Source: a virus
Length of the DNA stretch: 41,123 bases
Strand: one strand, 5' to 3'
Virus record (IMG/VR): IMGVR_UViG_3300020401_000030
Coordinates: 1 to 41,123 of that record
The translations under genes were made by a program, and so were the position numbers. The notes under the pieces were generated by a model. It did no database searches. It was not told the DNA's origin and saw only the letters and a list, made by a program, of their open reading frames with translations. Positions 1-15,624 of the stretch are shown in pieces. Each line of letters starts with the position of its first letter. Positions within the stretch are counted from its first letter, which is position 1.

Positions 1-626
1 ACAAGGCACACGAGAAACCTAACAAACCATCTCACCTACAGTATCCTGGTTTCTATCATAAGTTTCAACTTGGCACTGTACAGGATTACATATCTTACTA
101 TCAAAGAGTATGGGAACATGTAAAGCATGAGTATGCCTCTGTTGGTGACTTCAGTAATACCAATGCGATGATGAGAGAATCATATATGAGAGAGATCCGA
201 GATCAGATACTCGATGCCTTTGATCTCAAGATCACAATCATCTTCCGAGATCCCGTGCGTCGTCTGTATTCTCAGAATCATTACTATGACTTTGATAGTC
301 CTGACCCTCTCTCTTGGTATGGTAAGATATACAGGAAGTGGGCATCTGTCTTTGGTGAAGAGAGAATATGTCCGATTGTCATGGAGGAGTTCTGGGACGG
401 GCAGGTTGATTTACTTGAGGACTTCCTTGGTATCAAGATTGATACGATACATCCTAACTGCTTTGCTGGTGATTTCAAAAGACATGAGTATCTGGCAGAT
501 CAATGGATTGATGGCGACCCTAAACCACTGACACCAGAGCATTATCAGAGATTGTATAAAAATATGGAGGACGTATATAAAGACTTTGAGGATACCTTCG
601 GGTATATACCAAAGCAGTGGGGATAA
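1..626 (+). CDS. Sulfotransferase-like protein, paralogue A (5' end outside window)
   Basis: The reading frame is open from base 3, so the true start and the N-terminal nucleotide-binding loop lie upstream of the window. The visible 207 codons carry the family's later blocks: a GDFSN motif, then FRDPVRRLYS, which matches the 3'-phosphate-binding RxPxxRxxS segment of PAPS sulfotransferases, then VMEEFW, DQW and a C-terminal FGYIP..W signature shared by all eight paralogues here. By family knowledge it would transfer a sulfuryl group from PAPS to a hydroxyl or amine, acting in the host cytoplasm; the acceptor is unknown. Its stop overlaps the start of the next paralogue by 10 bases. Family membership is well supported, activity is not. 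Confidence 0.8.
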   Translation, partial: KAHEKPNKPSHLQYPGFYHKFQLGTVQDYISYYQRVWEHVKHEYASVGDFSNTNAMMRESYMREIRDQILDAFDLKITIIFRDPVRRLYSQNHYYDFDSPDPLSWYGKIYRKWASVFGEERICPIVMEEFWDGQVDLLEDFLGIKIDTIHPNCFAGDFKRHEYLADQWIDGDPKPLTPEHYQRLYKNMEDVYKDFEDTFGYIPKQWG

Positions 627-1447
627 AATTTCTATTGAACGTGGGGACACACTTCTCCGCTACGAATCCACTGTGGTTCTCACTTTGTCATGATAACAAG
701 TATGTACACACAGGTCATAAGAAGGAGACTGGGTTCTTACTATATCTACAGAACAAGGATAGAAGCAAGTGTAAACCACATCCTCCCGACAGTGCGAAGA
801 TGAGACTGATGCCATTTCTTTTCTCATATTATCCACATGACTTCTTTGAGAGTTCAGAAACGATTGACGATTATATCAGATACTATACGAATCACTGGAA
901 TCAGATTGAAGGGTATGAGTCTGTAGGTGATTTCACAAATCACTATGCAGGTCTGACACCAGAGTTTGTGGAATCGATTGCAGACAAGTTGAATGATGCC
1001 TTCGACATGAAGGTGACTATGATATTCCGTGACCCAATACGTCGTCTGTTCTCGTCTGTAGGTACAAACAAGAAATTTCAAGATGTGCTCACCACTGGTG
1101 TCAGTAATGATAAGGGTATCAAGTTTTCTCAGTATGATCGTATCTACAATACCTTTGCCCCACACTTTGACACCTATGCAATCATCATGGAGGATCTGTG
1201 GAAAGACCATAGCGGTCTCTCTCAGTTTCTAAACTATGATATCAAGACTCTACACTATAATGTCTACACACCTGATCTTGGATCTAGACACCCGAACGAA
1301 CCTCTCCACTTAGATGACCAATGGAAATCAGATAAGGAGGATATTACTCAAGAGTCGATTGATATGGGAAAGAAGAAACTAGGATATGTCTACGAGAACT
1401 TTGAGAAGACGTTTGGTTATATACCATCAGCATGGGAATACCAGTAG
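617..1447 (+). CDS. Sulfotransferase-like protein, paralogue B
   Basis: A 276-residue protein starting at a GTG inside the last codons of paralogue A. The first residues give the beta-strand and loop LLNVGTHFSATNPL, in the place of the PAPS 5'-phosphosulfate loop, but with F where sulfotransferases normally have lysine or arginine. RDPIRRLFS (about residues 138-146) matches the 3'-phosphate-binding segment, followed by IIMEDLW (about 190), DQWKSD (about 233) and FGYIPSAW at the C terminus. The full set of family blocks supports the GTG start, since no upstream extension is needed. Its last 31 bases overlap convergently with paralogue C on the other strand. Substrate unknown; loss of the basic loop residue leaves catalysis uncertain. 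Confidence 0.82.
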   Translation: MGIKFLLNVGTHFSATNPLWFSLCHDNKYVHTGHKKETGFLLYLQNKDRSKCKPHPPDSAKMRLMPFLFSYYPHDFFESSETIDDYIRYYTNHWNQIEGYESVGDFTNHYAGLTPEFVESIADKLNDAFDMKVTMIFRDPIRRLFSSVGTNKKFQDVLTTGVSNDKGIKFSQYDRIYNTFAPHFDTYAIIMEDLWKDHSGLSQFLNYDIKTLHYNVYTPDLGSRHPNEPLHLDDQWKSDKEDITQESIDMGKKKLGYVYENFEKTFGYIPSAWEYQ

Positions 1448-2361
1448 TCAGGTAGTTTACCAAAGTATTCCTTCCACTCATCATATACGAAACCAAGATA
1501 TTGTTTAGACCACTCATATAACTCTGGTGAGATATCGTCCTGTTCTGACGACCACTGATCGACCAGACCTTCTAGTTTAGGTGCCTTTGTTCCTCTCTCT
1601 GGTACAAATACATTCTCATGTATCTTAGTGATTGGATATTCTAGAAACCAACTGATGTCTTGCTCTCCACGAAAGAACTCTTCCATGACTACAGGTAATA
1701 CATTGTGTTTACCGAAGACTCTTCTGAACTTCTTGATACCATCGACATATAAAGCACCTTCATGTATCGGTTCCTCTGTCAGAAGACGTTTGTATGTTCC
1801 TATGTGGTCAAACTTCTTCTTTTTCTTTGCCCTCTTCAATATATCCTTTTCTTGCTGTGTCCACATAGAGAAGTGATGACCATACTTACCTACTCTAGAA
1901 AAGTATCGGTAGATAGGATCACGGAACTGGAATGTAACCTTGACATTGAAGTGTTTTCTCAGTTCTGTGTATACTTCGAGTAGAAACTCTTCATCTAAGT
2001 AAAAGGTGCTATTGGAGAAGTCACCTACAGCATGATATGTGCCCTTCACTCTCTCTGCTAATCTTACATAGTAGTCAACATACTTCTTGATACTGTATGG
2101 TGGTTGTAGATGTTGTCTAGTCTCATTAGGATTGATGAACTGTCGGTTGTCAACAGCATCTATCCATGGTTCACCTGGCAAACTGGTTATGTACTTGTAT
2201 CTGATGTATGATTCTCTCTTCTCATCTGACTTTGTCATCAACTTCAGATAGCAGGTCTCTTTCGAGTATCCTGTGTGTACATACTTTTGATCTTGAGCAA
2301 GCGTAAAGTAAAAAGGAGTAGTGCCACTCCAACCCGTACCTGCGTTGAAAAGAAAGTCCAC
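1417..2361 (-). CDS. Sulfotransferase-like protein, paralogue C
   Basis: A 314-residue protein with a GTG start sharing one base with the TAG stop of the upstream oxygenase-like gene, so it is probably translated by coupling as the third gene of a minus-strand operon (aldolase, oxygenase, sulfotransferase). Visible blocks are NAGTGWSGTTPF at residues 6-17 (tryptophan where the loop lysine is expected), GDFSNS near 113-118, RDPIYRYFS at 147-155, VMEEFF near 225-230, then DQWSSE and a C-terminal FGKLPDYW. A lysine-rich stretch of about eight residues near 178-183 is peculiar to this copy. The 3' end overlaps paralogue B by 31 bases in antisense. The family assignment is good; the acceptor is unknown. 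Confidence 0.82.
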   Translation of the reverse strand: MDFLFNAGTGWSGTTPFYFTLAQDQKYVHTGYSKETCYLKLMTKSDEKRESYIRYKYITSLPGEPWIDAVDNRQFINPNETRQHLQPPYSIKKYVDYYVRLAERVKGTYHAVGDFSNSTFYLDEEFLLEVYTELRKHFNVKVTFQFRDPIYRYFSRVGKYGHHFSMWTQQEKDILKRAKKKKKFDHIGTYKRLLTEEPIHEGALYVDGIKKFRRVFGKHNVLPVVMEEFFRGEQDISWFLEYPITKIHENVFVPERGTKAPKLEGLVDQWSSEQDDISPELYEWSKQYLGFVYDEWKEYFGKLPDYWYSHADGI

Positions 2362-3002
2362 TATTCTATGTCAATCTCACGTCCTGAGTAAATTCTATTT
2401 TTCAATACCAAGTCTTCTTGTACAAAAAATGAGTTTAGTGTGATTCTAGGTACATCATAAGAATTCCTGATACTATGCCATGTGATGTTTGGAAGAGAGT
2501 TGTGGAAAAATGCCTTGTTTGGTTTCCACTCTAATTCATATGTGTACTCTGAAGGGTCACTTGCTTCTTCATGGTCTCCTTTATCATTCTTACTGAGATT
2601 CTTATGTAATATCGTTCCATCACTCTTCAATGGGTCAACATACAATATGGTTGTGCTTATTCTTGCTCTATTATCACAGTGTGGAGGGTAAGTCCACTTT
2701 GAGGGTGCGATTGCCCAGTGTATTATCTTTTTCAACTTGCCTTCATATCCACGGTGAGGTAGATCATACTTATAAAACAACTCATTAGTCTCTGGTATGA
2801 TATCTTCACTCTCATAGAAACTATATTTGTTTCTGACTGCTAATTCTTTCTTCTCATAGTTTTGAGTTGTTGCACCAACCTCATAAAAATTTTTCAGATG
2901 CTTCTGACCTAATTCTCTTATTGTCTCCCATCTTTCTGGTGACAGGAAATTCTCAAAAGCATAGCACTCCCAAGGTTCTTTGATGTGAATAATGTCCATC
3001 AT
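2361..3002 (-). CDS. 2-oxoglutarate/Fe(II)-dependent oxygenase-like protein
   Basis: A 213-residue protein whose C-terminal half has the layout of the double-stranded beta-helix dioxygenases: PPHCD gives the HxD iron ligands (H108, D110), W-H176 gives the distal histidine, and R186 ten residues later fits the 2-oxoglutarate-binding arginine. Such enzymes hydroxylate small molecules, sugars or protein side chains. Many phages carry members of this superfamily; the substrate of this one cannot be read from sequence. The ATG overlaps the TGA of the aldolase gene (ATGA), and its stop overlaps the start of paralogue C, so the three minus-strand genes are almost certainly co-translated. I am fairly sure of the fold and the metal ligands, not of the reaction. 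Confidence 0.7.
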   Translation of the reverse strand: MMDIIHIKEPWECYAFENFLSPERWETIRELGQKHLKNFYEVGATTQNYEKKELAVRNKYSFYESEDIIPETNELFYKYDLPHRGYEGKLKKIIHWAIAPSKWTYPPHCDNRARISTTILYVDPLKSDGTILHKNLSKNDKGDHEEASDPSEYTYELEWKPNKAFFHNSLPNITWHSIRNSYDVPRITLNSFFVQEDLVLKNRIYSGREIDIE

Positions 3003-3787
3003 GTATTTAGAATCGTCTCTATGGTCTTTCTGGGTCTATTGATGAAGTTTACGTCACCTGAGTATACGATAAATTTATATCCCTCAGATATTCTCTGTTC
3101 ATATTCTATCTCAGGATCTGCTGATAGATGATTACCAGGTATATGATATCCTATCGGCACCCGATTTATGATACATCCTTTCTTGTATGCGTCTAATTGA
3201 ACTTGAAACTCATGAGTGGTGAAGTCACCTGCACATCCTATAGACGCTGATAGGTCATAAGGTCCTATCAAAGCAGCGTCTACGTCTTCACTTAGTATGT
3301 CATTTATATTTTCTATCGCTTCATAGTGCTCTATCATAGGAATGAGTAGAGGACTCTGACCTACACCCTCAAGATAGTCGTGAAAATGACTACCATATCC
3401 GTTTGCTCTGTTGAAACCGAGACCTCTTGACCCTGTTGGTGGGTATGCAATCGCATCTTTGATGTCTGACATCTGTTTTCCAGTCCTTACTTGTGGAACT
3501 ACGATGCCACCAGCACCTTGTTCCATTGCTTCTACCGCAAGATAGGGGTCAGGTTTAGCAATTCTCGCTAGAGGGAGCGTATTTCCAATTTCTAAAGCAC
3601 GAAATATGTTTGGTAACTGGTTTCTTGTGATATTACTGTGTTCTAAATCCACTCCCACGAACTGAAATCCGAAAGAACCCATCAATTCTGCGAGTTCTGT
3701 GCATGGTAATTGTTGCCAAGATCCAATAACTACTCCTCCACTAGATAGTTTTGCTCTTATATGGTCAATTCTGAGTTTTTTATTCAT
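2999..3787 (-). CDS. HpcH/HpaI aldolase/citrate lyase family protein
   Basis: A 262-residue protein of the class II pyruvate aldolase family (HpaI-like TIM barrel). Family marks in order: GSWQQL near the N terminus, GVDLEHS (acid and base histidine region), ARIAKPDP, GAGGIVVPQVRT, IPMIEHYEAI with the metal-binding glutamate, and ALIGPYDLSASIG with the metal-binding aspartate. Such enzymes make or cleave 4-hydroxy-2-oxo acids. I place the start at the ATG at 3787, where the normal HpaI N terminus begins; a 24-residue upstream extension would run antisense over the neighbouring SGNH gene. That ATG shares the CATG tetranucleotide with the divergent gene start at 3786. The residues needed for catalysis appear intact. 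Possible roles are making an unusual acid sugar precursor or host carbon metabolism. Confidence 0.85.
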   Translation of the reverse strand: MNKKLRIDHIRAKLSSGGVVIGSWQQLPCTELAELMGSFGFQFVGVDLEHSNITRNQLPNIFRALEIGNTLPLARIAKPDPYLAVEAMEQGAGGIVVPQVRTGKQMSDIKDAIAYPPTGSRGLGFNRANGYGSHFHDYLEGVGQSPLLIPMIEHYEAIENINDILSEDVDAALIGPYDLSASIGCAGDFTTHEFQVQLDAYKKGCIINRVPIGYHIPGNHLSADPEIEYEQRISEGYKFIVYSGDVNFINRPRKTIETILNT

Positions 3788-4367
3788 GATTTTATTCTCT
3801 GGATGTAGTATAACATATGGTGATGAGTTGGTAAACCCTGAAAAAGACAGATTTTCCAAGAATCATGTCAACATTGCACGGTGCGGACTGTCAAATGACA
3901 TGATTGTCATGAGAACTATCGAGTATATTGAGCAAAATCCCGATGTAGACTACGTTGTAACGCAATTTACAGTGCCTAGAAGGTCAACATACTACGAAAA
4001 TGAGTGGAAAAGCATAACACCATGGACAAAAAACGTGGAATCAAGTGTATATTATAAGTATTTGGACTCTCAAGAGATGAGAAATATGAATTTATGGAAG
4101 AATGTGTATATTCTAGATCAATATTTACGTGACATACCGCATTATTTCTGGAGATTGAGTGAAAGCACAGAGGATTCATCAACAAATGACAGTATTTTCA
4201 AGAAGGTGGTGCCTTGGAGTGGTATGAAAACCTTATATGACCTAATTGGCAGACCTGATACACACCCCAACCATTATGTTACAGGTCACCCTAACGAACT
4301 AGGGCATAATTTGATCTTTCAACACCTCCAAGGCGTTGTCCCAAACATATCATACCACTCATCATAG
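3786..4367 (+). CDS. SGNH-hydrolase-like protein (first of two paralogues)
   Basis: A 193-residue protein from the ATG at 3786; a longer open frame begins at 3699 but lies wholly antisense to the aldolase N terminus and lacks family features. FSGCSITYGDEL resembles SGNH block I (nucleophile serine), CGLSNDMI supplies a Gly/Asn block, and GHPNELGH near the C terminus looks like the catalytic-histidine block. The same three blocks occur in the gene at 11406. SGNH enzymes are esterases or O-acyltransferase partners acting on acyl groups of sugars and other compounds. The start is head to head with the aldolase on a shared CATG. The 3' end overlaps paralogue D by 49 bases in antisense. Function is inferred only at superfamily level. 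Confidence 0.65.
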   Translation: MILFSGCSITYGDELVNPEKDRFSKNHVNIARCGLSNDMIVMRTIEYIEQNPDVDYVVTQFTVPRRSTYYENEWKSITPWTKNVESSVYYKYLDSQEMRNMNLWKNVYILDQYLRDIPHYFWRLSESTEDSSTNDSIFKKVVPWSGMKTLYDLIGRPDTHPNHYVTGHPNELGHNLIFQHLQGVVPNISYHSS

Positions 4368-5227
4368 TATTTGGCAAGGCATCTTCGACCAAAACTCAAG
4401 TCATCATCAGTCAAATCCTCCAAATCCGACTTATACTGGTCACTAAGGTTCTCATGGTGTGGTGCTTTTGTTCCCATTTCAGGATAATAGCAGTTAGGGT
4501 ATAGGTTTTTGATGTCGAAGTGTAAAAAATTACTAAGTTTTGCTAAAGCATCGTTTTTACCACCCCATAAATCTTCGGAAACGATAGTTGTGGTACTAAA
4601 AATCGATTTATAATACTTTATCCTCTTGACAAACTCACAATTCATGCTATAATTGCCTATCGTAAGATAACTCCAGAAATAATCTCTCGATGTAGGGTAT
4701 TTTTTACGAATATTCTCGTCATATTGGTATTGTGCCGACAATTCGCTGTATAATCTGCGAACTGGATCACGAAAAATGATCAAAACCTTGATTTTGAAGT
4801 GTTTTCTGAGTTCTGGTGCTATATCTTGTAAAAATTTCTGTGGAAGCATGGCATTGCTGTTAGAAAAGTCAGCAACATAGGCATATTCGTGTTTTATTCT
4901 CTCATAATGTCTTTTGTAGTACTTGATATACGTGTCTAGCGTCGGTTTTGTAAATAATTCTTCAATCTCGTCTAAATTTTCGGTAAAAGCGTACTTATCT
5001 TTGAGATGCCACTCATTTTTGTAGTGTGGATTCTCAGATTTACCCATAATGAAGTCATACCAAGGTTTTCTCCACTTCCATGCCTCGTCACTATATACAT
5101 GATATAGTAAGTGACTCTCTTTTTGTAATCCTACATGGGCACACTTGTTAGAACGCTGTAATGTGAGGTGAAGAGGACTTGTAGCACTCCAACCAGTCCC
5201 TGCACCGATAATTAATGGAACTCTCAT
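4319..5227 (-). CDS. Sulfotransferase-like protein, paralogue D
   Basis: A 302-residue protein. I use the ATG at 5227 because the family's N-terminal strand and loop (IIGAGTGWSATSPL, residues 6-19) begin right after it; a further 37 upstream residues are antisense to paralogue E and match nothing. VADFSNSNA lies near 118-126, RDPVRRLYS at 153-161, IVSEDLWG replaces the usual VMEEFW, and DQYKSD replaces DQW. The C terminus is cut short after FGTTP compared with the other copies. The tryptophan at the usual basic loop position recurs. It is a single minus-strand gene between two plus-strand genes: it shares CATG with the start of paralogue E and overlaps the SGNH gene tail to tail by 49 bases. 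Confidence 0.8.
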   Translation of the reverse strand: MRVPLIIGAGTGWSATSPLHLTLQRSNKCAHVGLQKESHLLYHVYSDEAWKWRKPWYDFIMGKSENPHYKNEWHLKDKYAFTENLDEIEELFTKPTLDTYIKYYKRHYERIKHEYAYVADFSNSNAMLPQKFLQDIAPELRKHFKIKVLIIFRDPVRRLYSELSAQYQYDENIRKKYPTSRDYFWSYLTIGNYSMNCEFVKRIKYYKSIFSTTTIVSEDLWGGKNDALAKLSNFLHFDIKNLYPNCYYPEMGTKAPHHENLSDQYKSDLEDLTDDDLSFGRRCLAKYYDEWYDMFGTTPWRC

Positions 5228-6065
5228 GAAACCTATATTACATTTGAACGCAGGGGTGGGTTGGTCAGCGACTAAACCACTTTGCGACACACTTTCGGAC
5301 GTGAGATATGCTATTTGTCCTAATAGACAGCATACCACAGAGTGTAATGTCCTGTATTACTTATATGAGAAGCAATACAAACCTGTACATGCAAATTTTT
5401 ACTGGCATACGGTACATAAGAAGCGAGGTCTAGACTTTGTCATAAAAAATACGACTTTAGAGTGGTATATCAATTATATCAAGTCACATATCGTCGATAG
5501 TCACCTAGGAGTCAGTGATTTCTCAAATAGTAACACAGATCTACCTCCATACTTCCTAAAACAGATTGCACCAGTGCTAGAAGAAGAATTTGATGTCAGA
5601 GTGACTACAATTTGGAGACATCCCGTCAGAAGGTCGTATTCTCAGATGTCAGCATGGTATTTCAAGAAATGGAATGACAGTCACGAGAGATATCCAGATA
5701 GTATCACATATTGGAGGTCACAACTCAGTAGTCCTTCACACTTACTGCCAGATTACGTAGAAGTTTACAAGAATTGGTCATCTGCCTTCAAAAAAGTCTA
5801 TCCTGTGATTATGGAGGAGGTATGGGAAGATCCTAGAGGACTATCTGAGTTTCTAGGTGTCAAAATAGACAAAATGAGTGAAAATCTGTATTTTCCAGAA
5901 CGAGGAACAAATATGCCACATATAGAGGGTCTAGAACACCAATGGCAGAGCGATATGCAAGATTTGACGGATGATGATTTACAATACGGTAGAAATCGAC
6001 TAGAATGGGTATATAATAACTTTAAATCGGAATTTCACTACATACCTGAGTCATGGGAAAAGTAA
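5226..6065 (+). CDS. Sulfotransferase-like protein, paralogue E
   Basis: A 279-residue protein with ATG at 5226, back to back with paralogue D. The loop is LNAGVGWSATKPL (residues 7-19); SDFSNSN is near 97-103. The 3'-phosphate block reads RHPVRRSYS (131-139), with histidine in place of the aspartate seen in the other copies, while the arginine and serine that contact the phosphate remain. VIMEEVWED, HQWQSD and FHYIPESWEK complete the family pattern. Its last 13 bases are also the start of paralogue F, in a different frame. This begins a run of plus-strand genes that continues to 12053. Activity and acceptor are unknown. Confidence 0.82.
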   Translation: MKPILHLNAGVGWSATKPLCDTLSDVRYAICPNRQHTTECNVLYYLYEKQYKPVHANFYWHTVHKKRGLDFVIKNTTLEWYINYIKSHIVDSHLGVSDFSNSNTDLPPYFLKQIAPVLEEEFDVRVTTIWRHPVRRSYSQMSAWYFKKWNDSHERYPDSITYWRSQLSSPSHLLPDYVEVYKNWSSAFKKVYPVIMEEVWEDPRGLSEFLGVKIDKMSENLYFPERGTNMPHIEGLEHQWQSDMQDLTDDDLQYGRNRLEWVYNNFKSEFHYIPESWEK

Positions 6066-7051
6066 AACTACTACTAAACGTCGGAACTTGCTTTTCTGCC
6101 ACATCTCCGTTCCATTACACGGTTTCATGGGATCATAAGTGTGTTTTCAACGGACATTGCAAAGAACCTCAGTATCTTTATCATTTGATGGCAGGTACTA
6201 AGCAATTGAAGGCAGAGAAACCAGATAAGACTAGACCTAAACCTGATCAGGCAAGAAAACAGGGAAAACCAGATATATTGACACAACACTCAAAATATGT
6301 TGTAGGTAAGTGGACAAAGGAGCAAGAAGATGAGTTTTTCAGAAGTCCTATGCATATAGACAAGTATATTAGGTATTGGTTGAGACATTGGGATAATGTG
6401 AAGGATGAATTTGAATGGGTAGGTGATTTTTCCAATCAGAGTGCATTATTGTCAATTCCCTTCATGGCATCTATAAAAGATCAGTTACTTGAGCATTTTG
6501 ATGTCAAAGTGACCATGCAATTCAGAGATCCTGTAAGAAGACTGTTTTCTGTGGCAAATAAGTGTGTAAAAAATAAAGAATACAGTCAACGCAAACAATT
6601 GAAGAATAAATTCTATCCTGATCGAGTTGAGCGTAATAAACAGGTAAATGAGGCAATGACACCCATACAGGTGATGTATCAGTGGTTATCAGGTGCATTT
6701 GAACCCAATGCATACTATTCTCAGATATACAGGCGACATGCACAGATATGGGGTAAAGAAAACGTGAAAGCAATCGTTATGGAGGACTTTCACAATCCTG
6801 ATAAAGAGAAAGACCAATTAGCGATGTTATCAGACTTCTTTGACTATAAGTTCACAAGTATACATGAAAATGTGTATTATCCCGATATGGGGTCGAATCC
6901 ACCTAAGTTAGATTGGTTGAGTGACCAATACTCGTCTGATATCGTAGATATCACAGATGATCAGTATAAGAAGTGTCGTCAACTAATGAATCAGGTATAT
7001 AAAGAATTTGAAAAGACATTCGGGTATATTCCAGATGAATGGGGAAAATAA
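6053..7051 (+). CDS. Sulfotransferase-like protein, paralogue F
   Basis: At 332 residues it is one of the longest copies. It starts at the ATG at 6053, within the SWEK-stop codons of paralogue E. LLNVGTCFSATSPF (7-20) resembles the loop of paralogue B, with F at the usual lysine position. A lysine- and proline-rich insertion at about residues 57-75 looks like a flexible linker and is absent in the others. GDFSNQS (about 124-130), RDPVRRLFS (158-166), a second insertion with AMTPIQVMYQWLSGAF, IVMEDFH, DQYSSD and FGYIPDEWGK follow. B and F appear to be closest to each other by eye. Its last 17 bases overlap paralogue G. Confidence 0.82.
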   Translation: MGKVKLLLNVGTCFSATSPFHYTVSWDHKCVFNGHCKEPQYLYHLMAGTKQLKAEKPDKTRPKPDQARKQGKPDILTQHSKYVVGKWTKEQEDEFFRSPMHIDKYIRYWLRHWDNVKDEFEWVGDFSNQSALLSIPFMASIKDQLLEHFDVKVTMQFRDPVRRLFSVANKCVKNKEYSQRKQLKNKFYPDRVERNKQVNEAMTPIQVMYQWLSGAFEPNAYYSQIYRRHAQIWGKENVKAIVMEDFHNPDKEKDQLAMLSDFFDYKFTSIHENVYYPDMGSNPPKLDWLSDQYSSDIVDITDDQYKKCRQLMNQVYKEFEKTFGYIPDEWGK

Positions 7052-7934
7052 ACCACTATTACTAATCAATGCAGGTGTAGCGTGGTCTGGAACTAAACCA
7101 CTATGCAAAACACTGCAAGTATGCCAAAAGATCACACATCATGGTCTTGTTGTCGAGAATAACATATTATACTACCTTTACCTACTACAGACCGATCTAA
7201 AGCAAGCAAAACGGTATTTCAACGAAAGACACAACTATAGAGTGCGATCTGCGATTGATAGCAACTCTATACCGCTTGATTTGGAATATTTGGAAAATAT
7301 CTTCAAAAAGAAGACAACTATCCATACTTACATCAAATATCACCTTGACCTTTGGGAAAGGAACAAAAAGAAGGGATATATCGGATTATCCGACTTTTCA
7401 AACAGTAATGCCATATTACCTTCCAATTTTCTTGCATCTATCAAGACAGAGCTAGAAAAGCACTTTATTGTCAAAGTAATCATGATATTCCGTGATCCAG
7501 TGCGAAGATGGTATTCTGAAGCGTCAGTCGAGTACAAATACAATACAAGCGAACATCCTGATGAATGGAGGGGTGGAACTGCAGATGTGACGGGATATAA
7601 GGATAGTATCGAATATTGGAAGTCAAAACGCATAGATCACAATTGCGACTATCTAAAGATCTATAAAAACTATAAAAGAGTGTTTGACACGTATCCTATC
7701 GTTATGGAAGAGTTCTGGTACGATCAGAGTGGTCTCAGTGACTTTCTAGGACGTGATATCGATAAAGTCAATGCAAACGTATATTGTCCTTATATTGGCA
7801 TAAACAAAGACCATACACCTGCAGATCTACAAAAACTGTCAGATGATGACCTTATGTGGGGTATGAACAAACTTGAGAAAGTATACAAAGGATGGGAGAA
7901 AGAATTCGGATATATACCTCAATCATGGTTATAA
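7035..7934 (+). CDS. Sulfotransferase-like protein, paralogue G
   Basis: A 299-residue protein. I choose the ATG at 7035 rather than 7008 because the other copies begin 6-10 residues before the conserved strand, here LLLINAGVAWSGTKPL. LSDFSNSN sits near 118-125, RDPVRRWYS at 153-161 and IVMEEFW later. Unlike its relatives it lacks the DQW-x-SD block: the equivalent region reads directly from CPYIGINKDH to LSDDDL, so a short segment near the C terminus appears deleted. It ends FGYIPQSWL. The start overlaps the WGK-stop codons of paralogue F, the same junction form as the A/B and E/F boundaries. Confidence 0.8.
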   Translation: MNGENKPLLLINAGVAWSGTKPLCKTLQVCQKITHHGLVVENNILYYLYLLQTDLKQAKRYFNERHNYRVRSAIDSNSIPLDLEYLENIFKKKTTIHTYIKYHLDLWERNKKKGYIGLSDFSNSNAILPSNFLASIKTELEKHFIVKVIMIFRDPVRRWYSEASVEYKYNTSEHPDEWRGGTADVTGYKDSIEYWKSKRIDHNCDYLKIYKNYKRVFDTYPIVMEEFWYDQSGLSDFLGRDIDKVNANVYCPYIGINKDHTPADLQKLSDDDLMWGMNKLEKVYKGWEKEFGYIPQSWL

Positions 7935-7935
7935 T

Positions 7936-8028
7936 ATGAAAAGACTCTGGAAGTGGATAGTCGGTGAGTACAAACTTTGGAAACTCCGTCGCCAAGACCC
8001 ATACATCTATGAAGATGACGACGAGTAA
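7936..8028 (+). CDS. Tiny basic/acidic protein, 30 residues
   Basis: A short ATG frame begins one base after the stop of paralogue G. It encodes an amphipathic, tryptophan- and lysine-rich N-terminal half (MKRLWKWIVGEYKLWKL), then RRQDPYIYEDDDE with an acidic end. The sharp basic-to-acidic layout and the exact fit into the gap support a real small gene; I have the impression that similar tiny proteins with an RRxDPxIYE ending occur in marine T4-like phages, but cannot verify it. Its 3' end overlaps the start of paralogue H by about 20 bases. It has no recognised function; a surface-binding or regulatory peptide is possible. Confidence 0.5.
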   Translation: MKRLWKWIVGEYKLWKLRRQDPYIYEDDDE

Positions 8029-8998
8029 AATACCTCTTCTGGTATTTTGTGGATGGGGTCACTCTGCAACAACCCCCTTTTATTATACGGTAGCGTTAGA
8101 TAACAAGGGGTTTCATGGTGGTCATAAAAAAGAGACAGGATATCTGAACGAGCTAGAAAACTATGAGTACTTCAATATGCCAATGTGGAAGTACACATCA
8201 GATCCCTATGAGAGATTATTAGGTAAAGACGATCCTCTCACACCACCATCTCTGAATTGTCACTCACCATACACCAGACATACAGAGGAGTTCATACGAG
8301 ACTGGATTGCAGAACCACCTAGTATCCAGAAATATATCGACTACTATAAGATACACTATGAGAATATCAAAGATGATTACTATGGTGTCTCTGACTTCGC
8401 TAATGGTAACTCATGGTTGAGAGAACCTTTTCTTGAGAAGTATATTCCAATACTACAAGAACACTTTGATGTCAAGTGTATATTTGTAGCAAGAGACCCT
8501 GTGCGTAGGTCATACTCTGATTTTAGTGCGAAGTTCACATGTAATGATGTCAGTGGCGAAAGACTGAAGGAGGGGTGGTTATATCCAGACAATCCAACTG
8601 AAAGACAATATACCAGTATACATGAGATGTTCCGTGGTGAACTTCATAAGAGTTGTACAAGGTTCTATGTTGAGTTTTACCGCAAGTTCAAGAAGTATGT
8701 GCCTACGTTGCAACTTGTCATGGAAGAGTTCTGGGAACCAAGTAGATTTGAGGAGCAGACAAAGAAAGTATCAGATTTTTTAGGATTCCCTATAACAAAG
8801 ATTCACCATAATGCCTTTTGGCCAGAAGCAGCAGATAAAGCACCACAGTATGATTACCTCAAAGACCAGTGGGGGTCAGTCAGAGACCCTCTGACACCTG
8901 AGTTATATGAATATGGTAGAAATGTACTATTCCCTGTCTACAAGGCATGGAAGGACGAGTTTGGGGTCTTACCTGATACGTGGGGTGAGTTCATATGA
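8009..8998 (+). CDS. Sulfotransferase-like protein, paralogue H
   Basis: A 329-residue protein from ATG 8009 (ATG 8015 is an equally good start; a GTG at 7964 would add 15 residues that overlap the tiny ORF and look non-homologous). Its loop is the most divergent, FCGWGHSATTPFYYTV, with histidine at the lysine position. SDFANGNS replaces DFSNSN; ARDPVRRSYS (near 161-170), VMEEFWE, DQWGSV and FGVLPDTWGEFI follow. The segment HGGHKKETGYL resembles HTGHKKETGFL in paralogue B and is a second shared block across the family. It ends four bases into the next gene (ATGA overlap). Confidence 0.82.
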   Translation: MKMTTSKIPLLVFCGWGHSATTPFYYTVALDNKGFHGGHKKETGYLNELENYEYFNMPMWKYTSDPYERLLGKDDPLTPPSLNCHSPYTRHTEEFIRDWIAEPPSIQKYIDYYKIHYENIKDDYYGVSDFANGNSWLREPFLEKYIPILQEHFDVKCIFVARDPVRRSYSDFSAKFTCNDVSGERLKEGWLYPDNPTERQYTSIHEMFRGELHKSCTRFYVEFYRKFKKYVPTLQLVMEEFWEPSRFEEQTKKVSDFLGFPITKIHHNAFWPEAADKAPQYDYLKDQWGSVRDPLTPELYEYGRNVLFPVYKAWKDEFGVLPDTWGEFI

Positions 8999-10062
8999 TC
9001 AATTACTGGGCGACACCCAACATGGGTAAGATGCACATGATGCAACTCATAGAAATCAATAAGAAATCATATACAAAGAACAAGTATCCATACTATATCT
9101 ACAAACAATGGCATGACAACGATATGAGAGTTGAAAAGTCATATGTGCTAAGACATGGTCAGTCAGATATAGAGACAGCGATAAAAACTAAGACCCCATT
9201 TGGTGAAAAGGTCAAGCACAAGGGTGGTGTCTTACATGAATACTTGTGGGAGGTAGCAAAGAGCGATACTGATAGCATCAAACTACATTCTAATACCAGT
9301 GAAGTGGGTGGTGACCTGATGGAGCGTTACTTTGGTAATGTAAGAGATAGAAAACCCCCTGATGACTTGATGAAGGACAAAGACCCTGTTGAGGTGTTCT
9401 TTACGGACAAGTGGTTTACATTATTACAGGAAAAATTCCCTGTATCTCCTTCTATAAATTATCTTGGGACTTTCTTACAACCATATTTGAGGGATAATGC
9501 AAATTGTATCGTCCCTTTGGTTGAAGAATTGTGTGATGTTGATTTTATCTTTGATCCTTACATAATCATGGGCAGACAAATGTTGGGTACACCAACAAGA
9601 CTACTTACAGACTTGACTGAGCAAGAAAAGTATGTTGTAAACATATACAGGTCGAGAAAGAATGTCATACCATACAAAGAAGACTTGATTGATTGTTTTG
9701 CTAGTAAGTTGAAACGATATAGTAATAAGCATGCGTACCACAGATATAAAACCGAGGATGCCTCAGTGTTATACAATCTTGATAGAGACTTATTGTGGAT
9801 ATACCTTGACACTGTTGTGCAGCAGGTGAGAAGAATAGAGAGATACTTCAAACATAACAACATAGACGCATACTACTTCAATATGGATCGGGACAACTAT
9901 AAAGATACCTTTGGGTTTGAAAAGGATGAACTACCACGCACTCAAACTCATCCTGGCGACTACCCACAACGAGAGTTGTATGAGACAATAGCGAAAGAGT
10001 ATGTTATGATGAGAAACATGAAAGATATGAGGAGGCGAGGTAGAATATATGATAGGCTTTAG
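8995..10062 (+). CDS. Protein of unknown function, 355 residues
   Basis: I do not recognise this gene. It is a soluble-looking protein with no signal peptide or membrane segment, rich in aromatic and charged residues, with a basic C terminus (RNMKDMRRRGR). A stretch near residues 295-325 (AYYFNMDRDNYKDTFGFEKDELPR) and an early YVLRHGQSD segment are the most motif-like parts. It is coupled on both sides: its ATG overlaps the TGA of paralogue H, and its own last 14 bases overlap the carbamoyltransferase start. Its position between a sulfotransferase-like protein and a carbamoyltransferase suggests a step in the same surface-decoration pathway, for example a divergent transferase, but this is context only. 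Confidence 0.75.
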   Translation: MINYWATPNMGKMHMMQLIEINKKSYTKNKYPYYIYKQWHDNDMRVEKSYVLRHGQSDIETAIKTKTPFGEKVKHKGGVLHEYLWEVAKSDTDSIKLHSNTSEVGGDLMERYFGNVRDRKPPDDLMKDKDPVEVFFTDKWFTLLQEKFPVSPSINYLGTFLQPYLRDNANCIVPLVEELCDVDFIFDPYIIMGRQMLGTPTRLLTDLTEQEKYVVNIYRSRKNVIPYKEDLIDCFASKLKRYSNKHAYHRYKTEDASVLYNLDRDLLWIYLDTVVQQVRRIERYFKHNNIDAYYFNMDRDNYKDTFGFEKDELPRTQTHPGDYPQRELYETIAKEYVMMRNMKDMRRRGRIYDRL

Positions 10063-11425
10063 TGAAGGGTTTCATGATGCAGCAGTCGCTGTGGTCAATG
10101 ATGGTAAGATTTGTTATGCTTCACATTCAGAAAGATATTCTAAGATAAAGCATGATAAGAACCTTGATGTCACTGCTGCTGCCACTGCACGGTTATTATG
10201 TCATGACCAGAAGGTAGCATTCTACGAAAGACCATGGTTGAAAAGAACAAGGCAGTTTTTTGCAGGTCAGAAGGCATGGTATAGACACAGACACCTGACA
10301 CTCCAACCTACAGAGTATCATAGTCATCATAAGTCACACGCTGCTGCAGCGTTTCAGACATCACCTTTTGACGAAGCAGCGATAGTTGTTGTTGATAGTA
10401 TAGGAGAGTGGGATTGTACATCTATATGGACTGCTGAATATAAACAAGGTCACGCTTGCTATAAGAAGAGATGGTCGCAGTGGTATCCGCAATCTATAGG
10501 TTTGTGGTACTCAGCACTCACCAAGTGGGCAGGTTTGCGACCACTGGACGAGGAGTATATCTTTATGGGTATGGCAGCGTTTGGTAATCCCGTGCATATG
10601 AACGTAGTAGAGAAGCAGTTGCATAGGAATAATCATAAGGGAGCGAGGATAGGAGACTATGACAAGTGTGATATCGCAAAGAGTGCAGAGAGAATACTAC
10701 AACTAGAACTCAATACTATATTTGCTAGAGCAGCACAGTATAGTAAGCACATATGCTATGGAGGTGGTGTCGCACTCAACTGTGTCGTAAACACTGGACT
10801 AAGGGAAATGTATAACTTATGGATTATGCCTTGTCCTGGTGACGCAGGTGGTGCTCTGGGTGCAGCATGTCTTGCATATGGTAAGAAGGTTGCCTTCAGT
10901 CCTTACCTAGGATATAATATACAGAAGTTATGTGATCCAAGGAGAGTTGTTGATGGACTCCTCGAAAAAAGAGTCGTGGGGGTTGCAAATGGCCGTGCTG
11001 AGTTTGGTCCTCGTGCTTTGGGTAATAGAAGTTTACTGGCGGATCCAAGGAAAGCTGAAACCAAAGACCTAGTAAACGAAATAAAGAGGAGAGATAAGTT
11101 CAGACCATTTGCACCTGCAGTTCTTGAGGAACACGCTCAAGATTATTTCGATATGCCTAAACAATCAAGGTATATGTCTTACGTTTATAAATGTAAGCAG
11201 CAGAGGGCGATACCTGCCTGTATACACGTCGATGGATCTGCTAGGGTACAAACAGTACCAAAAGACTCAGAGAGTATTCTAAGACCAATACTGGAGTGCT
11301 GGTACGAACGTACTGGGTGTCCTGTATTATTGAATACATCTTTGAATATCAAAGGTAAACCTATGGTCAACACCATAGGGGATGCAATAGAATTTTCACA
11401 TAAGTATGATGTCACTGTGTTTTAG
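10049..11425 (+). CDS. Carbamoyltransferase, NodU/CmcH (TobZ) family
   Basis: A 458-residue protein with the marks of O-carbamoyltransferases: MIGFSEGFHDAAVAVV at the N terminus, the metal-binding histidine cluster YHSHHKSHA (90-98), VVDSIGEWD, GMAAFGNP, CYGGGVALN, CPGDAGGALGAA, and the C-terminal GRAEFGPRALGNRSLL segment (about 314-330) followed by LLNTSLNIKGKP. The reaction uses carbamoyl phosphate and ATP to carbamoylate a hydroxyl, often on a sugar. It is shorter than typical members (about 550-600 residues), with compact spacing in the middle, yet all main blocks remain. A strong AGGAGGCGAGG ribosome-binding stretch at 10030-10040 supports ATG 10049. Its end overlaps the second SGNH gene by 20 bases. 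Confidence 0.92.
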   Translation: MIGFSEGFHDAAVAVVNDGKICYASHSERYSKIKHDKNLDVTAAATARLLCHDQKVAFYERPWLKRTRQFFAGQKAWYRHRHLTLQPTEYHSHHKSHAAAAFQTSPFDEAAIVVVDSIGEWDCTSIWTAEYKQGHACYKKRWSQWYPQSIGLWYSALTKWAGLRPLDEEYIFMGMAAFGNPVHMNVVEKQLHRNNHKGARIGDYDKCDIAKSAERILQLELNTIFARAAQYSKHICYGGGVALNCVVNTGLREMYNLWIMPCPGDAGGALGAACLAYGKKVAFSPYLGYNIQKLCDPRRVVDGLLEKRVVGVANGRAEFGPRALGNRSLLADPRKAETKDLVNEIKRRDKFRPFAPAVLEEHAQDYFDMPKQSRYMSYVYKCKQQRAIPACIHVDGSARVQTVPKDSESILRPILECWYERTGCPVLLNTSLNIKGKPMVNTIGDAIEFSHKYDVTVF

Positions 11426-12053
11426 TGGATGTAGTATCACATGGGGTGATGAACTACAAAAGAGATTTAGCGAGAGATATAGTTCTCTTGTATCAAAACA
11501 TTATGATACCAAACACACAAACATATCAGAGTGTGGTATCAGTAATGATGCGATAGTAAGAAATACAATCAGACATCTACAAAATACCAGTTCTCCTGAC
11601 GTAGTTGTTATACAATACACAGTTCATCCTAGAATAGAGTATTTCGACAATCAACTCATACAGAAGTGGACACCACAGAGGGCAAATGATACACAGAGGA
11701 GTAGAGCATACTATTTGTCTGTCTACAATGACATCTTTGCAGCAGAGAACATGTGGAAGAATATATTCTTATTTGACTCATATTGTAAGAGTGTAGGACA
11801 GAAATATGTGTCATTGATTGCCGATCACTTTGAACGTATTATTGTAAAACCTGAAAAATTCTATAAAGGAGACATTGGATATTGGAGAAGTATGTGTAAA
11901 GACTACAAACCTGTATACATTCAAAAAGAATTACTAGGCACTGAGATAGAGCATCCAGAGAACTATGCTCAAGGTAGAAAAGGTGGGCATCCAAGTGCAC
12001 AAGGTCACATACTAATGGCAAATAAAACTATCGAGTTGATAGACGCTATATAA
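11406..12053 (+). CDS. SGNH-hydrolase-like protein (second of two paralogues)
   Basis: A 215-residue relative of the gene at 3786. Shared blocks are CFSGCSITWGDEL (block I with the nucleophile serine), ECGISNDAIVRNTIRHL, VVVIQYTVHPR, ENMWKNIFLFD and GGHPSAQGHIL (catalytic-histidine region). Start ATG 11406 or 11409; both lie inside the carbamoyltransferase C terminus. The family suggests an esterase or an acyl-handling enzyme; next to a carbamoyltransferase it may act on the same sugar or lipid. The sigma70-like -35 box of the next unit lies within its last codons. Confidence 0.7.
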   Translation: MMSLCFSGCSITWGDELQKRFSERYSSLVSKHYDTKHTNISECGISNDAIVRNTIRHLQNTSSPDVVVIQYTVHPRIEYFDNQLIQKWTPQRANDTQRSRAYYLSVYNDIFAAENMWKNIFLFDSYCKSVGQKYVSLIADHFERIIVKPEKFYKGDIGYWRSMCKDYKPVYIQKELLGTEIEHPENYAQGRKGGHPSAQGHILMANKTIELIDAI

Positions 12054-12085: not shown

Positions 12086-12841
12086 ATGGCTAAAGGATTT
12101 AAGGTGGTATCTAAACCACCCACTGTTGAAGCAAAAGACACTTTTGATATTGAAGCAGCAAAGAAATTGATCCAAGGTAAGAGCGTTGTATTCTGCTTAC
12201 CTGGCAGAGGCGTATCATACGTCTTCCTAAAGAATTTCGTATCACTCTGTTTCGAGTTGGTACAGAACGGAGCAAATATACAGATAGCACAAGACTATAG
12301 TTCTATGGTGAACTTTGCAAGATGTAAATGTCTTGGTGCGAACGTATTACGAGGACCTGATCAATTACCTTGGGATGGCAAACTCAACTATGATTATCAA
12401 CTATGGATTGATAGTGATATCGTATTTTCTAATGAATCATTCTATCGTCTGATCGCTATGGATAAAGATATTGCAGGTGGATGGTATGCAACAGAGGATG
12501 GTAGAACTACATCATGTGCACACTGGTTAGAAGAGGATGATTTCAAAGAGAATGGTGGAGTCATGAATCATGAGATGGTTGAGGGCATTGTAAAAAGACG
12601 TAAACCATTTACTGTTGACTATTCTGGATTTGGTTGGTTACTTATCAAGAAAGGTGTGTTTGAACATAAGGAAATGAAGTATCCTTGGTTTGCTCCACAG
12701 ATGCAGGTATTTGATTCTGGTGAGGTACAAGATATGTGTGGTGAAGACGTATCATTCTGTCTTGATGCAATCAAAGCAGGTTTTGAAATATGGGTTGATC
12801 CACAGTGTAGGGTAGGTCATGAGAAAACTAGAATCATATAG
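12086..12841 (+). CDS. GT-A fold glycosyltransferase
   Basis: A 251-residue protein with features of Anp1/GT2-like transferases: CLPGRGVSYVFL near the N terminus, a DSD metal and nucleotide-sugar motif (109-111) in LWIDSDIVF, SGFGWLLIKKGVF, YPWFAP, and a GEDVSFC motif (219-225) that would carry the catalytic acid, then a histidine in VGHEKT near the end. Such enzymes move a sugar from a nucleotide donor to an acceptor in the cytoplasm. Relatives are common in T4-like cyanophages. It has its own sigma70-type promoter and is followed three bases later by a small acidic gene and a terminator, so its timing likely differs from the late structural genes next to it. Donor and acceptor are not determinable here. 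Confidence 0.85.
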   Translation: MAKGFKVVSKPPTVEAKDTFDIEAAKKLIQGKSVVFCLPGRGVSYVFLKNFVSLCFELVQNGANIQIAQDYSSMVNFARCKCLGANVLRGPDQLPWDGKLNYDYQLWIDSDIVFSNESFYRLIAMDKDIAGGWYATEDGRTTSCAHWLEEDDFKENGGVMNHEMVEGIVKRRKPFTVDYSGFGWLLIKKGVFEHKEMKYPWFAPQMQVFDSGEVQDMCGEDVSFCLDAIKAGFEIWVDPQCRVGHEKTRII

Positions 12842-13093: not shown

Positions 13094-13498
13094 GTGCCAG
13101 CACAGAGGTTTTCGCAAGGATTCAAAGATATATCTTTGTCCTTCAAAAAACATCCAGTAACAAGAGACATCCTTACATTGAAAAATGAGGATGCCATCAA
13201 ACGTTCTGTGCAAAATTTAGTTCGCACTATAAGAGGTGAAGTATTCTTCAACGAACTATTAGGCACAAGAATCAGTGGATCGCTCTTTGAGTTGGCAAAT
13301 AGTGATTATATCGATCCTATGAAAACAGAGATAGAGACTGTTCTCAAAAACTTTGAACCAAGGGTAAAATTGACAGGAGTAGATTTCAAGTCTTTTCCTG
13401 ATCGTAACGCAGTTGATGTCACGATAAGATATGATCTTATTGGTCTCTCTGCCCCTTCTCAGTCTGTCAACTTCATACTAGAACCAACAAGGTTATAA
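13094..13498 (+). CDS. gp25: Baseplate wedge protein gp25
   Basis: A 134-residue protein, matching the T4 gp25 length (132). The N-terminal GFKDISLSFKKHPVTRDIL, the central NLVRTIRGEVFFNELLGTRISGSLFE and the C-terminal IRYDLIG..QSVNFILEP are the hallmarks of the GPW/gp25 family. It sits at the inner baseplate wedge and helps link the hub region to the sheath start. The GTG start at 13094 is favoured because it gives the expected N terminus just before the conserved GFKDI segment; no strong Shine-Dalgarno is visible. Its stop overlaps the gp6 ATG (TAATG). Presumed to begin a long late transcript through gp6 and beyond. Confidence 0.95.
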   Translation: MPAQRFSQGFKDISLSFKKHPVTRDILTLKNEDAIKRSVQNLVRTIRGEVFFNELLGTRISGSLFELANSDYIDPMKTEIETVLKNFEPRVKLTGVDFKSFPDRNAVDVTIRYDLIGLSAPSQSVNFILEPTRL

Positions 13499-15624
13499 TG
13501 GCACTGCAACAATTTACCAATCTAAACTTTGAGGACATCAAAACCTCAATCAAAGATTATCTAAGACAAAACTCAAACTTCAGTGATATGGATTTTGAGG
13601 GGTCAAACCTTTCTGTCATTGTAAATCTACTCGCATATAATTCATATACCACAGCATACAACACTAACGCAGTCGTAAACGAGACATTTATAGACAGTGC
13701 TACACTTAGAGAAAACGTAGTATCACTAGCAAGAAATATAGGTTATGTTCCACGCTCAAGAAGAGCAGCAAGAATGTTGGTGGATTATGAAATAGTTGGT
13801 CTTACATCTACCACAGAGACGATAAAATTTCAACCAGGTTTGATAGGTAACGGAACAGTATCAAATGTAAACTTCTTATTCTCCATACCAGAGGAAGTTA
13901 CAGGGGCAGCATTTGAAGGAACAGCAGCAGGTACATTTGAAGCGTTCCAAGGTCAGTATCTTGAATCTAGATTTGTAGTGAATGACTCTCTACCTAATCA
14001 AAGATACATTTTACCTAACAATGGTGTAGATACATCTACAATTAGAATAAATGTAAAAGAAAATAACGCAAGCACCACTAGAACAGAGTATAAGTTAGTA
14101 GATAATATTATAGGTGTTACATCTACGTCAAATATATTCCTAATACAGGAAACCACTGATGAGAAGTATGAGGTATTGTTTGGTGATGGTATATTCGGAC
14201 ACAAATTATCTAATGGTAATGTCGTTGAGATATCTTACATAAAAACTGAAGGTAAGGAAGGGAATGGTGCAGTAAGATTGACATTTGCAGGTACTATTAT
14301 AAATGAGAACCTTGCAACAGAGTCTGGTTTCACTGCAGCGTTATCACCTCAATTCCCATCATCAAATGGAGACGATATAGAGGATGTGAGAAGCGTAAGA
14401 TACTATGCCCCTAGATTATACTCCTCACAGCACAGAGCAGTCACAGCGAATGACTATGAGGCAATCGTGCCATCTGTTTATCCTAATATAGAATCTATAA
14501 GTGCATTTGGTGGTGAGGAATTGACACCACCCAAGTATGGTAGAGTTTATATCGCAGCGAAACCTAAGAACGGATCATTCCTGTCAGAGTTTACGAAGAA
14601 ACAGATACTATCATCACTCAAGAACTACTCTGTGGCAGGTATAGTGCCAGAGATCATTGATTTGAAGTTCTTATACGTAGAACTCGACACTCATGTATAC
14701 TATAATGCAAACTTTGTCGGTGACACACAAAATCTTAGAACAGATGTCATAAACGCCATGAGTGTATTTGCTAGTGGCACAGAATTGAATAAATTTGGTG
14801 GTAGATTCAAGTATAGTAAAGTCTTATCATTGATTGACAGAGTAAGTGACTCTATCACATCTAATATCACAACGATAAGGATTAGAAGAAACTTGGTGGC
14901 AGTGCTGAACGTGTTTAGTCAGTATGAGATTTGTTTTGACAACACCTTCCATAGAAATGAGTCATCTTATAATATCAAGTCTACTGGATTCAATATATCT
15001 GGTGTGTCTGGTACAGTGTACTTCTCTGATCAGCATGTATCTGGTGATACAGGTAATCTCTTCCTATTCCAACTTGACTCTGATACTAATGTCAAGATAC
15101 TGTCTACAACATTCGGATCTGTTGATTATAAGAAAGGTGAGGTCATAATTGACACAGTAAACATCACAGGTACAGTTCTATCAGATAATATTATTGAGAT
15201 ACAGGCGATACCACAGTCAAATGACGTACTAGCAAGGAAAGAATTGTATCTTCAGTTTGATGTATCTAACAGTAACTTCTTTATGAGAGAAGATCCTATA
15301 TCTACAGGTGCAAACACATCTGGTACAAGATATAACCCACAATCTAGTTACAGTAACGGTGCAAAAGTAAGAGGTGCTATCATAACAAGCACATCTAGTG
15401 CTACTACACTGGTTGGGTATGTAAATGGACAACCTTACTACGGTGCGTTCCACTCAATGCCAAATGGAGACCGCATGACAGGTGCATTCCACTCTGCATC
15501 AAGTCTTCCTATAACTAGCACTCCGACAACTGCCATAGATAGTTCATCAACAAGTGTGTCACAGACATCATCGACATCTTCTTCATCATCTTCCTCAAGC
15601 AGCAGTAGTGGATACGGATACTAA
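13498..15624 (+). CDS. gp6: Baseplate wedge protein gp6
   Basis: A 708-residue protein. The first 100 residues (FEDIKTSIKDYL, SNLSVIVNLLAYNSYTTAYNTNAVVNE, ATLRENVVSLARNIGYVPRS) are typical of gp6/J-type baseplate wedge proteins, and VEISYIKTEGKEGNGA plus the AVTANDYEAIVPSVYPNI segment match the family's middle domain. gp6 forms the inner ring of the wedge. It is a little longer than T4 gp6 (660). The extra part is at the C terminus: a doubled GAFHS motif (GAFHSMPNGDRMTGAFHS) and a serine-rich tail ending GYGY. Start and stop overlap the neighbours by one base each. Confidence 0.93.
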   Translation: MALQQFTNLNFEDIKTSIKDYLRQNSNFSDMDFEGSNLSVIVNLLAYNSYTTAYNTNAVVNETFIDSATLRENVVSLARNIGYVPRSRRAARMLVDYEIVGLTSTTETIKFQPGLIGNGTVSNVNFLFSIPEEVTGAAFEGTAAGTFEAFQGQYLESRFVVNDSLPNQRYILPNNGVDTSTIRINVKENNASTTRTEYKLVDNIIGVTSTSNIFLIQETTDEKYEVLFGDGIFGHKLSNGNVVEISYIKTEGKEGNGAVRLTFAGTIINENLATESGFTAALSPQFPSSNGDDIEDVRSVRYYAPRLYSSQHRAVTANDYEAIVPSVYPNIESISAFGGEELTPPKYGRVYIAAKPKNGSFLSEFTKKQILSSLKNYSVAGIVPEIIDLKFLYVELDTHVYYNANFVGDTQNLRTDVINAMSVFASGTELNKFGGRFKYSKVLSLIDRVSDSITSNITTIRIRRNLVAVLNVFSQYEICFDNTFHRNESSYNIKSTGFNISGVSGTVYFSDQHVSGDTGNLFLFQLDSDTNVKILSTTFGSVDYKKGEVIIDTVNITGTVLSDNIIEIQAIPQSNDVLARKELYLQFDVSNSNFFMREDPISTGANTSGTRYNPQSSYSNGAKVRGAIITSTSSATTLVGYVNGQPYYGAFHSMPNGDRMTGAFHSASSLPITSTPTTAIDSSSTSVSQTSSTSSSSSSSSSSSGYGY

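Follow-up and report, generated by a model that had tools for sequence, protein, structure and literature searches.

What would a marine phage do with a whole row of related enzymes of one kind? The question is raised by a stretch of viral DNA of 41,123 nucleotides (IMG/VR record IMGVR_UViG_3300020401_000030, positions 1 to 41,123; hereafter the window), in which eight homologous open reading frames (ORFs), here called copies A to H, lie within positions 3-8998. The original prediction took them for eight sulfotransferase-like paralogues packed into 9 kb of phage DNA, each modifying its own acceptor or position, in what it likened to a code of surface sulfation. The predicted fold of the array proteins is that of a sulfotransferase, and the copies belong to a divergent, so far phage-only, sulfotransferase-like family; their array is a new kind of content for a hot spot already on record. 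As to function, we give an even chance to a hot-spot island of paralogous sulfotransferases that depend on 3'-phosphoadenosine 5'-phosphosulfate (PAPS) and have acceptors of their own, probably glycan positions tied to the virion tail or the host surface.

The copies are listed here with their nearest relatives in other contigs and, where given, the ratio of nonsynonymous to synonymous change (dN/dS).

3..626, plus strand: copy A, sulfotransferase-like; truncated at its 5' end by the window; BLASTP to other copies at E ≤ 4e-25.
617..1447, plus strand: copy B, 276 amino acids (aa), sulfotransferase-like; AlphaFold model and fold match to 3RNL; orthologue at 72% in L010.
1417..2361, minus strand: copy C, 314 aa, sulfotransferase-like; nearest relative at 52% in L075; dN/dS 0.15.
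4319..5227, minus strand: copy D, 302 aa, sulfotransferase-like; orthologue at 93% in L044, dN/dS 0.09.
5226..6065, plus strand: copy E, 279 aa, sulfotransferase-like; orthologues at 77-79% in L015, L014 and L044; dN/dS 0.11-0.20.
6053..7051, plus strand: copy F, 332 aa, sulfotransferase-like; orthologues at 66-68% in L020, L016 and L021; dN/dS 0.19-0.21.
7035..7934, plus strand: copy G, 299 aa, sulfotransferase-like, without DQWxSD; AlphaFold model and PDB fold matches.
8009..8998, plus strand: copy H, 329 aa, sulfotransferase-like; orthologue at 94% in L074, dN/dS 0.055.

Eight homologous ORFs are thus present where they had been placed, and the full-length copies fall within the predicted 276-332 aa. 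However, the array is not solid, given that three other genes (2361-4367) sit between copies C and D; these two copies lie on the minus strand and the other six on the plus strand. The count of eight is also too low. The IMG/VR contig L085, which overlaps the window (99.94% identical over 16,898 bases) and reaches 2405 bases further upstream, completes copy A (L085 2195-3028, plus strand) and adds a ninth copy (L085 3-716, minus strand) that is itself cut by the contig end, so the true array is larger than the window shows and the phage holds at least nine copies. Every pair among these nine matches by BLASTP (E 3e-12 to 5e-60, 27-40% identity), and their resemblance is therefore beyond chance; seventeen alignment columns are invariant across all eight window copies. 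The claim that all copies share the same block order stands for the consensus blocks and for the loss of DQWxSD in copy G, but not without exceptions: copy C reads RDPIYRYFS, copy E RHPVRRSYS, copy D SEDLW and copy F MEDFH, and the C-terminal FGYIP..W is exact only in A, B, F and G.

The family is barely recognised by existing profiles. No copy exceeds a curated Pfam cut-off (nearest is H, to Sulfotransfer_1 at E 0.087, 12.6 vs 22 bits), no copy has a confident assignment in PHROGs, and one of 52 family members matches Sulfotransfer_3 (E 0.0045). A profile search against the Sulfotransfer families, proposed as a check, therefore failed at the Pfam cut-offs, but the 52 members, used as a profile, match a bacterial sulfotransferase of known structure, 3RNL (E 4.3e-8), and the heparan sulfate sulfotransferase 3-OST-5 (E 1.2e-3), in both cases across the RDPxRRxxS block. 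Structure was predicted with AlphaFold for copies B (pLDDT 77, pTM 0.81) and G (pLDDT 88.9, pTM 0.88), the remaining copies being placed by sequence similarity to those two. All PDB fold matches of the copy B model at E ≤ 1e-3 are sulfotransferases, with 3RNL best (E 1.8e-6), followed by enzymes that include NDST1, 3-OST-1 with a heptasaccharide, CurM and, at rank 5, TPST2. For copy G, all 18 matches at the same threshold are tyrosylprotein (TPST1/2) or heparan sulfate 3-O (3-OST-3) sulfotransferases. The TM-scores of these matches are moderate (0.35-0.61), as expected of a remote family, and among viral proteins the closest folds belong to annotated sulfotransferases from marine phages and giant viruses. 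A predicted structure lacking the sulfotransferase fold would have told against the original assignment; both models have that fold.

A scan of IMG/VR with the family alignment gave 76 loci with 225 family ORFs, 185 of them distinct. Throughout these 185 members the RDPxRRxxS block is nearly unchanged (Arg of RDP in 97%, Pro in 99%, second Arg in 100%, Ser in 95%), and the Glu of MEE/MED is kept in 100%. The first Arg and the Ser of the RxPxxRxxS block of sulfotransferases bind the 3'-phosphate of PAPS, and in profile alignment the block of the family aligns to those of 3RNL and 3-OST. In addition, 139 of the 185 keep a Lys-Glu pair 24 residues past the loop that joins strand 1 to helix 1; its Glu would be the likely catalytic base by spacing, which resembles that of the Glu of NDST and 3-OST.

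The copies had been described as old duplicates kept under selection, and the relatives bear this out. A tree of 130 representatives separates the nine copies, each closest to members from other phages, except that copy C and the ninth copy fall together in one four-row clade. The best relatives are 94% identical for H, 93% for D, 80% for G, 79% for E, 72% for B, 68% for F, 52% for C and 43% for A. Decay for want of orthologues, the other way in which the prediction could have failed, was not seen: intact orthologues exist for B, D, E, F, G and H at 66-94%, with more distant relatives only for C (about 52%) and A (about 43%). Nei-Gojobori dN/dS for fourteen pairs covering all eight copies is 0.05-0.25, although C, A and B are close to saturated for synonymous change and their values are rough. 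Nine of the 11 short family ORFs are merely cut by contig ends, and broken copies occur in few relatives (one in-frame stop each in G023, G007 and G039; short internal ORFs in L048 and L035). Judged by these comparisons, the copies are old duplicates under purifying selection, whose duplications predate the divergence of these phages and which have been kept since. The group of copy D is the most widespread, being found in 20 loci.

The virus had been called a phage of cyanophage type, which agrees with its baseplate genes: gp25, gp6 and further ones are closest to those of cyanophages, with gp6 63% identical to that of Marine virus AG-345-D19 and 45-52% to those of Synechococcus and Prochlorococcus T4-like phages. 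The source is an uncultured marine virus of the T4-like cyanophage group. The psbA and psbD genes of a family-bearing 122-kb contig are 86.6% identical to those of Prochlorococcus phage P-HM2, and the host is therefore probably a cyanobacterium. Cyanobacteria make PAPS for sulfate assimilation, and PAPS synthesis by the phage itself was not supported, as no APS kinase (PF01583) was found in 43 family-bearing viral records, most of them fragments.

A tblastn search with copies E and F against 50,697 phage records matched only fragments of AG-345-D19, which comes from a plate of an extracellular sort gate (PMC6122165) and is probably a single virus particle; at the DNA level the array matched none of the phage records, and tblastn against plasmids gave nothing. 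With a stringent pattern, a scan of a genome collection returned nothing with the first alignment and, with the second, one metagenome-assembled genome (MAG) contig among the matches listed. This sole 'cellular' match among them (L092, PAQA01000006.1, from a MAG of Rhodospirillaceae) carries a ThyX-like gene and several carbamoyltransferase genes, and looks like phage DNA that was apparently placed in a bacterial bin. A cellular origin of the family found no support in these scans, whose stringent patterns distant cellular homologues could escape.

The genes between the copies and to their right are as follows.

2361..3002, minus strand: 2-oxoglutarate (2OG)-Fe(II)-oxygenase-like small enzyme; HxD...H pattern, by eye.
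2999..3787, minus strand: HpcH/HpaI-type aldolase (2-keto-3-deoxy-sugar aldolase superfamily); Pfam PF03328, E 2.5e-15.
3759..4367, plus strand: SGNH/GDSL-like protein (GCSITYGDEL); motif and similarity to 11406-12053, no Pfam match.
8995..10062, plus strand: 355-aa protein with no family match (Pfam, PHROGs); 58-71% identical homologues in place beside many arrays.
10049..11425, plus strand: NodU/NolO-type carbamoyltransferase; Pfam Carbam_trans_C 8.5e-56 and Carbam_trans_N 2.3e-32; phrog_1601.
11406..12053, plus strand: SGNH/GDSL-like protein (GCSITWGDEL); Lipase_GDSL_2 E 0.074, under cut-off.
12086..12841, plus strand: glycosyltransferase-like protein, fixed right border of the island; phrog_1574 2.6e-115, phrog_34859 glycosyltransferase 1e-5.
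13094..13498, plus strand: gp25-type baseplate wedge protein; phrog_261 baseplate wedge 4.4e-45.
13498..15624, plus strand: gp6-type baseplate wedge protein; phrog_219 2.7e-182.

The protein of 2361..3002 has no convincing match in Pfam, PHROGs or PDB sequences, and homologues of its gene lie in seven other arrays (L013, L018, L044, L016, L021, L020 and L035). The aldolase matches the NCBIfam models HpaI, GarL and 2-keto-3-deoxy-L-rhamnonate aldolase, all under the equivalog cut-off. Proteins of the SGNH/GDSL-like type at 11406..12053 occur in most arrays, often in several copies. As an observation in its own right, SGNH/GDSL-like proteins with GCSxTxG form another family that has expanded in these islands, with up to eight per locus (window 3759-4367 and 11406-12053; L019, L021, L037, L065, L098), and are barely recognised by Pfam and not by PHROGs.

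The array has a fixed place. It lies just upstream of the glycosyltransferase-like gene and gp25/gp6, and among the loci in which a copy and gp25 are both present, the nearest copy is 2.5-8 kb from gp25 in all 54, the glycosyltransferase-like gene is present in 54 of 54 and the NodU-like carbamoyltransferase in 52 of 54; as the loci were fetched via the sulfotransferase-like gene, these counts give the position of the array and not the share of phages that lack it. At its right border the island keeps the same genes (carbamoyltransferase, SGNH-like, glycosyltransferase-like, gp25, gp6, gp7), while the left part is shuffled. Gene content of the island turns over between close relatives: L013 and L018, with gp6 93.5% identical, have four of nine groups in common, as do the window and L021 with gp6 at 89.5%, some contigs in this comparison being truncated, which lowers the shared counts. 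The stretch from gp46 to gp25 is listed as a cyanophage variation hot spot (Sullivan et al., 2010; PMC3037559), with variable genes upstream of gp25 in the place that the array takes here. In the phages P-SSM2, S-8S55 and S-SCSM2R the same place is filled by small ORFs and 2OG-Fe(II) oxygenases, and no sulfotransferase array is annotated there.

Within the array, the start codons of the divergent copies D and E overlap in a CATG (window 5225-5228), and likewise in L017 (5038), L027 (5285) and L029 (745); the gap between the two is 10 bases in L012, L014, L015, L016, L021 and L067. Where the starts overlap there is no upstream non-coding room, and the ribosome binding sites and any promoter must lie inside the coding sequence of the partner. 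A scan for late-promoter motifs found few sites near the copies.

Further copies adjoin tail-fibre and sugar-type genes. AG-345-D19 has one copy next to a gene for a KdsB-like CMP-KDO synthetase and another downstream of the tail-fibre gene. Contig G024 has a second pair of copies directly after tail-fibre and methyltransferase-like genes, and a third site with SGNH-like genes and a phosphomannomutase-like gene. In G024 (L097 6880-8735) a pair of array-family genes sits exactly between the counterparts of window ORFs 38640-39200 and 39223-39897, a place without such genes in the window; this insertion marks a second hot spot beside the tail fibre. Beyond the tail-fibre gene of the window, two adjacent minus-strand ORFs (39875-40498 and 40642-41121) encode proteins kept in G024 (63-79%), whose homologues there have a P-loop-like start (GPQGSGNH) and a kinase- or sulfotransferase-like look; membership of the P-loop gene 40498-39875 in the family was ruled out (hhalign probability 0.5%). 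In AG-345-D19 (L090 8541-10099), the tail fibre and the array-family copy are separated by two further ORFs in tandem, whose products resemble the family in their loop (AIPGSGWSK, LGIPGSGWAK), match nothing in Pfam and are possibly another sulfotransferase-like family.

Taken together, the neighbour genes suggest that the acceptor is a carbohydrate, located near the tail or at the cell surface. In the proposed mechanism the host would supply PAPS, and each copy would move sulfate from it onto a hydroxyl of its own acceptor. The proteins start directly with the first strand and no signal peptide is visible by eye, and they should therefore act in the cytoplasm. The most likely class of acceptor would be a carbohydrate made or altered by the products of neighbouring genes (glycosyltransferase-like, carbamoyltransferase, aldolase-like, SGNH-like; KdsB-like in a relative) and carried on the tail and fibre of the virion, or on the surface of the infected cell. 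The copies are alike on the PAPS side, where the core is about 41% identical between groups and 78-79% within them, and vary in two segments taken as the putative acceptor side. These segments diverge between groups but stay alike within a group, as expected if each group keeps its own acceptor, which is consistent with different copies acting on different acceptors or positions. A set of enzymes would thus yield a set of sulfated positions, which might serve as the suggested code, and as phages keep different sets, the decoration would differ between close relatives. Known systems offer partial parallels. The heparan sulfate 3-O- and N-sulfotransferases (3-OST-1/3/5, NDST1) share the fold and the 3'-phosphate block and act as paralogues at different positions of one glycan, as proposed for the phage array, but are animal Golgi enzymes. 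NodH and NodU of rhizobia decorate one glycan, the Nod factor, and resemble the array in pairing a sulfotransferase with a NodU-like carbamoyltransferase, whereas NodH is single and not an array. 3RNL (from Alicyclobacillus acidocaldarius) has the RNPV/RDPV...S and EE blocks in common with the family but is 13% identical over the fold, and to our knowledge it does not occur in arrays.

Several observations weigh against this reading. The identities of the two length-variable segments (7-9% between groups vs 54-61% within) count gap columns, so that length differences lower the figures. Most functions of neighbouring genes rest on weak matches or by-eye calls. NodH, a known glycan sulfotransferase, shows no match to the family in hhalign (probability 0.3%), and the fold neighbours span sugar and protein-tyrosine sulfotransferases, which leaves both classes of acceptor. 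Finally, the strand 1-helix 1 loop reads G-x-G-W-S-A-T-T/S-P in the family, while the 5'-phosphosulfate-binding (PSB) loop of known sulfotransferases reads x-x-x-K/R-S/T-G-T-T, with Lys in the heparan sulfate enzymes and Arg in TPST1/2. At the Lys/Arg position, set by motif and secondary structure rather than by superposition, none of 182 members has a basic residue; Trp, Phe, His or Tyr stands instead. Activity therefore cannot be assumed, and the family is not filed under a Pfam sulfotransferase family. The same departure, and the want of a confident member in the sulfotransferase families of Pfam or PHROGs, would suit a sulfotransferase fold put to other chemistry, such as PAP-like nucleotide binding, another group transfer or a non-catalytic module (e.g., an anti-defence nucleotide binder). 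We hold this to be rather unlikely, given the near-invariant 3'-phosphate block, the invariant Glu of MEE/MED and convincing fold and profile matches that are all to sulfotransferases; the Lys-Glu pair could supply both charge and base, its Lys being a possible stand-in for that of the loop. Despite its loop, the family probably works like a sulfotransferase.

If sulfate is transferred, its acceptor could still be protein, with TPST-like copies sulfating tyrosines (or Ser/Thr) of baseplate or fibre proteins, one site per copy, and so tuning adsorption. Human TPST1 and TPST2 are the best PDB fold matches of copy G, the array abuts gp25/gp6, and in G024 and AG-345-D19 additional copies border on the tail-fibre region. 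However, the TPST matches have TM-scores of 0.35-0.45 only, heparan sulfate sulfotransferases match about equally by E-value and with higher TM-scores, the neighbours are sugar-type enzymes, and we know of no established tyrosine sulfation in phage virions; a protein acceptor is doubtful. That the hot spot merely gathers redundant duplicates would fit its known variability (PMC3037559), the fast turnover of gene content and the broken copies of a few relatives, but is very unlikely and largely refuted by the selection data for all eight copies; the deep, separate branches are not those of recent copies, and the short ORFs are mostly contig-end cuts. Phage DNA modification pathways do recruit unusual transferases, and carbamoyl-, glycosyl- and sulfotransferases might together modify nucleobases against restriction. 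This is highly improbable, as the window, itself a genome fragment, showed no gene of a hydroxymethyl-pyrimidine or deazaguanine pathway, and a neighbourhood of tail genes does not suggest DNA. The glycan reading may also be taken further, to a combinatorial sulfation in which up to nine or more exchangeable sulfotransferases, their active sites non-canonical, would each serve their own position on one tail or cell glycan, adsorption or superinfection specificity being varied by gene exchange at one locus and not by fibre mutation; in this extended form we consider it unlikely.

No report was found in the literature searched of a phage sulfotransferase array or of phage sulfation of virion or host surface, while single phage sulfotransferases are annotated. 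The family described here, which Pfam and PHROGs do not see, is common among contigs of marine viruses. Should its members prove active, the aromatic-for-basic swap in the phosphosulfate loop would be new enzymology. The position of the array beside baseplate genes suggests that a changing set of enzymes serves the virus in decorating either a sugar or the apparatus by which it attaches, and active copies would provide phages with a sulfated coat or a receptor chemistry that varies, and cyanophages with a route to changes in specificity.

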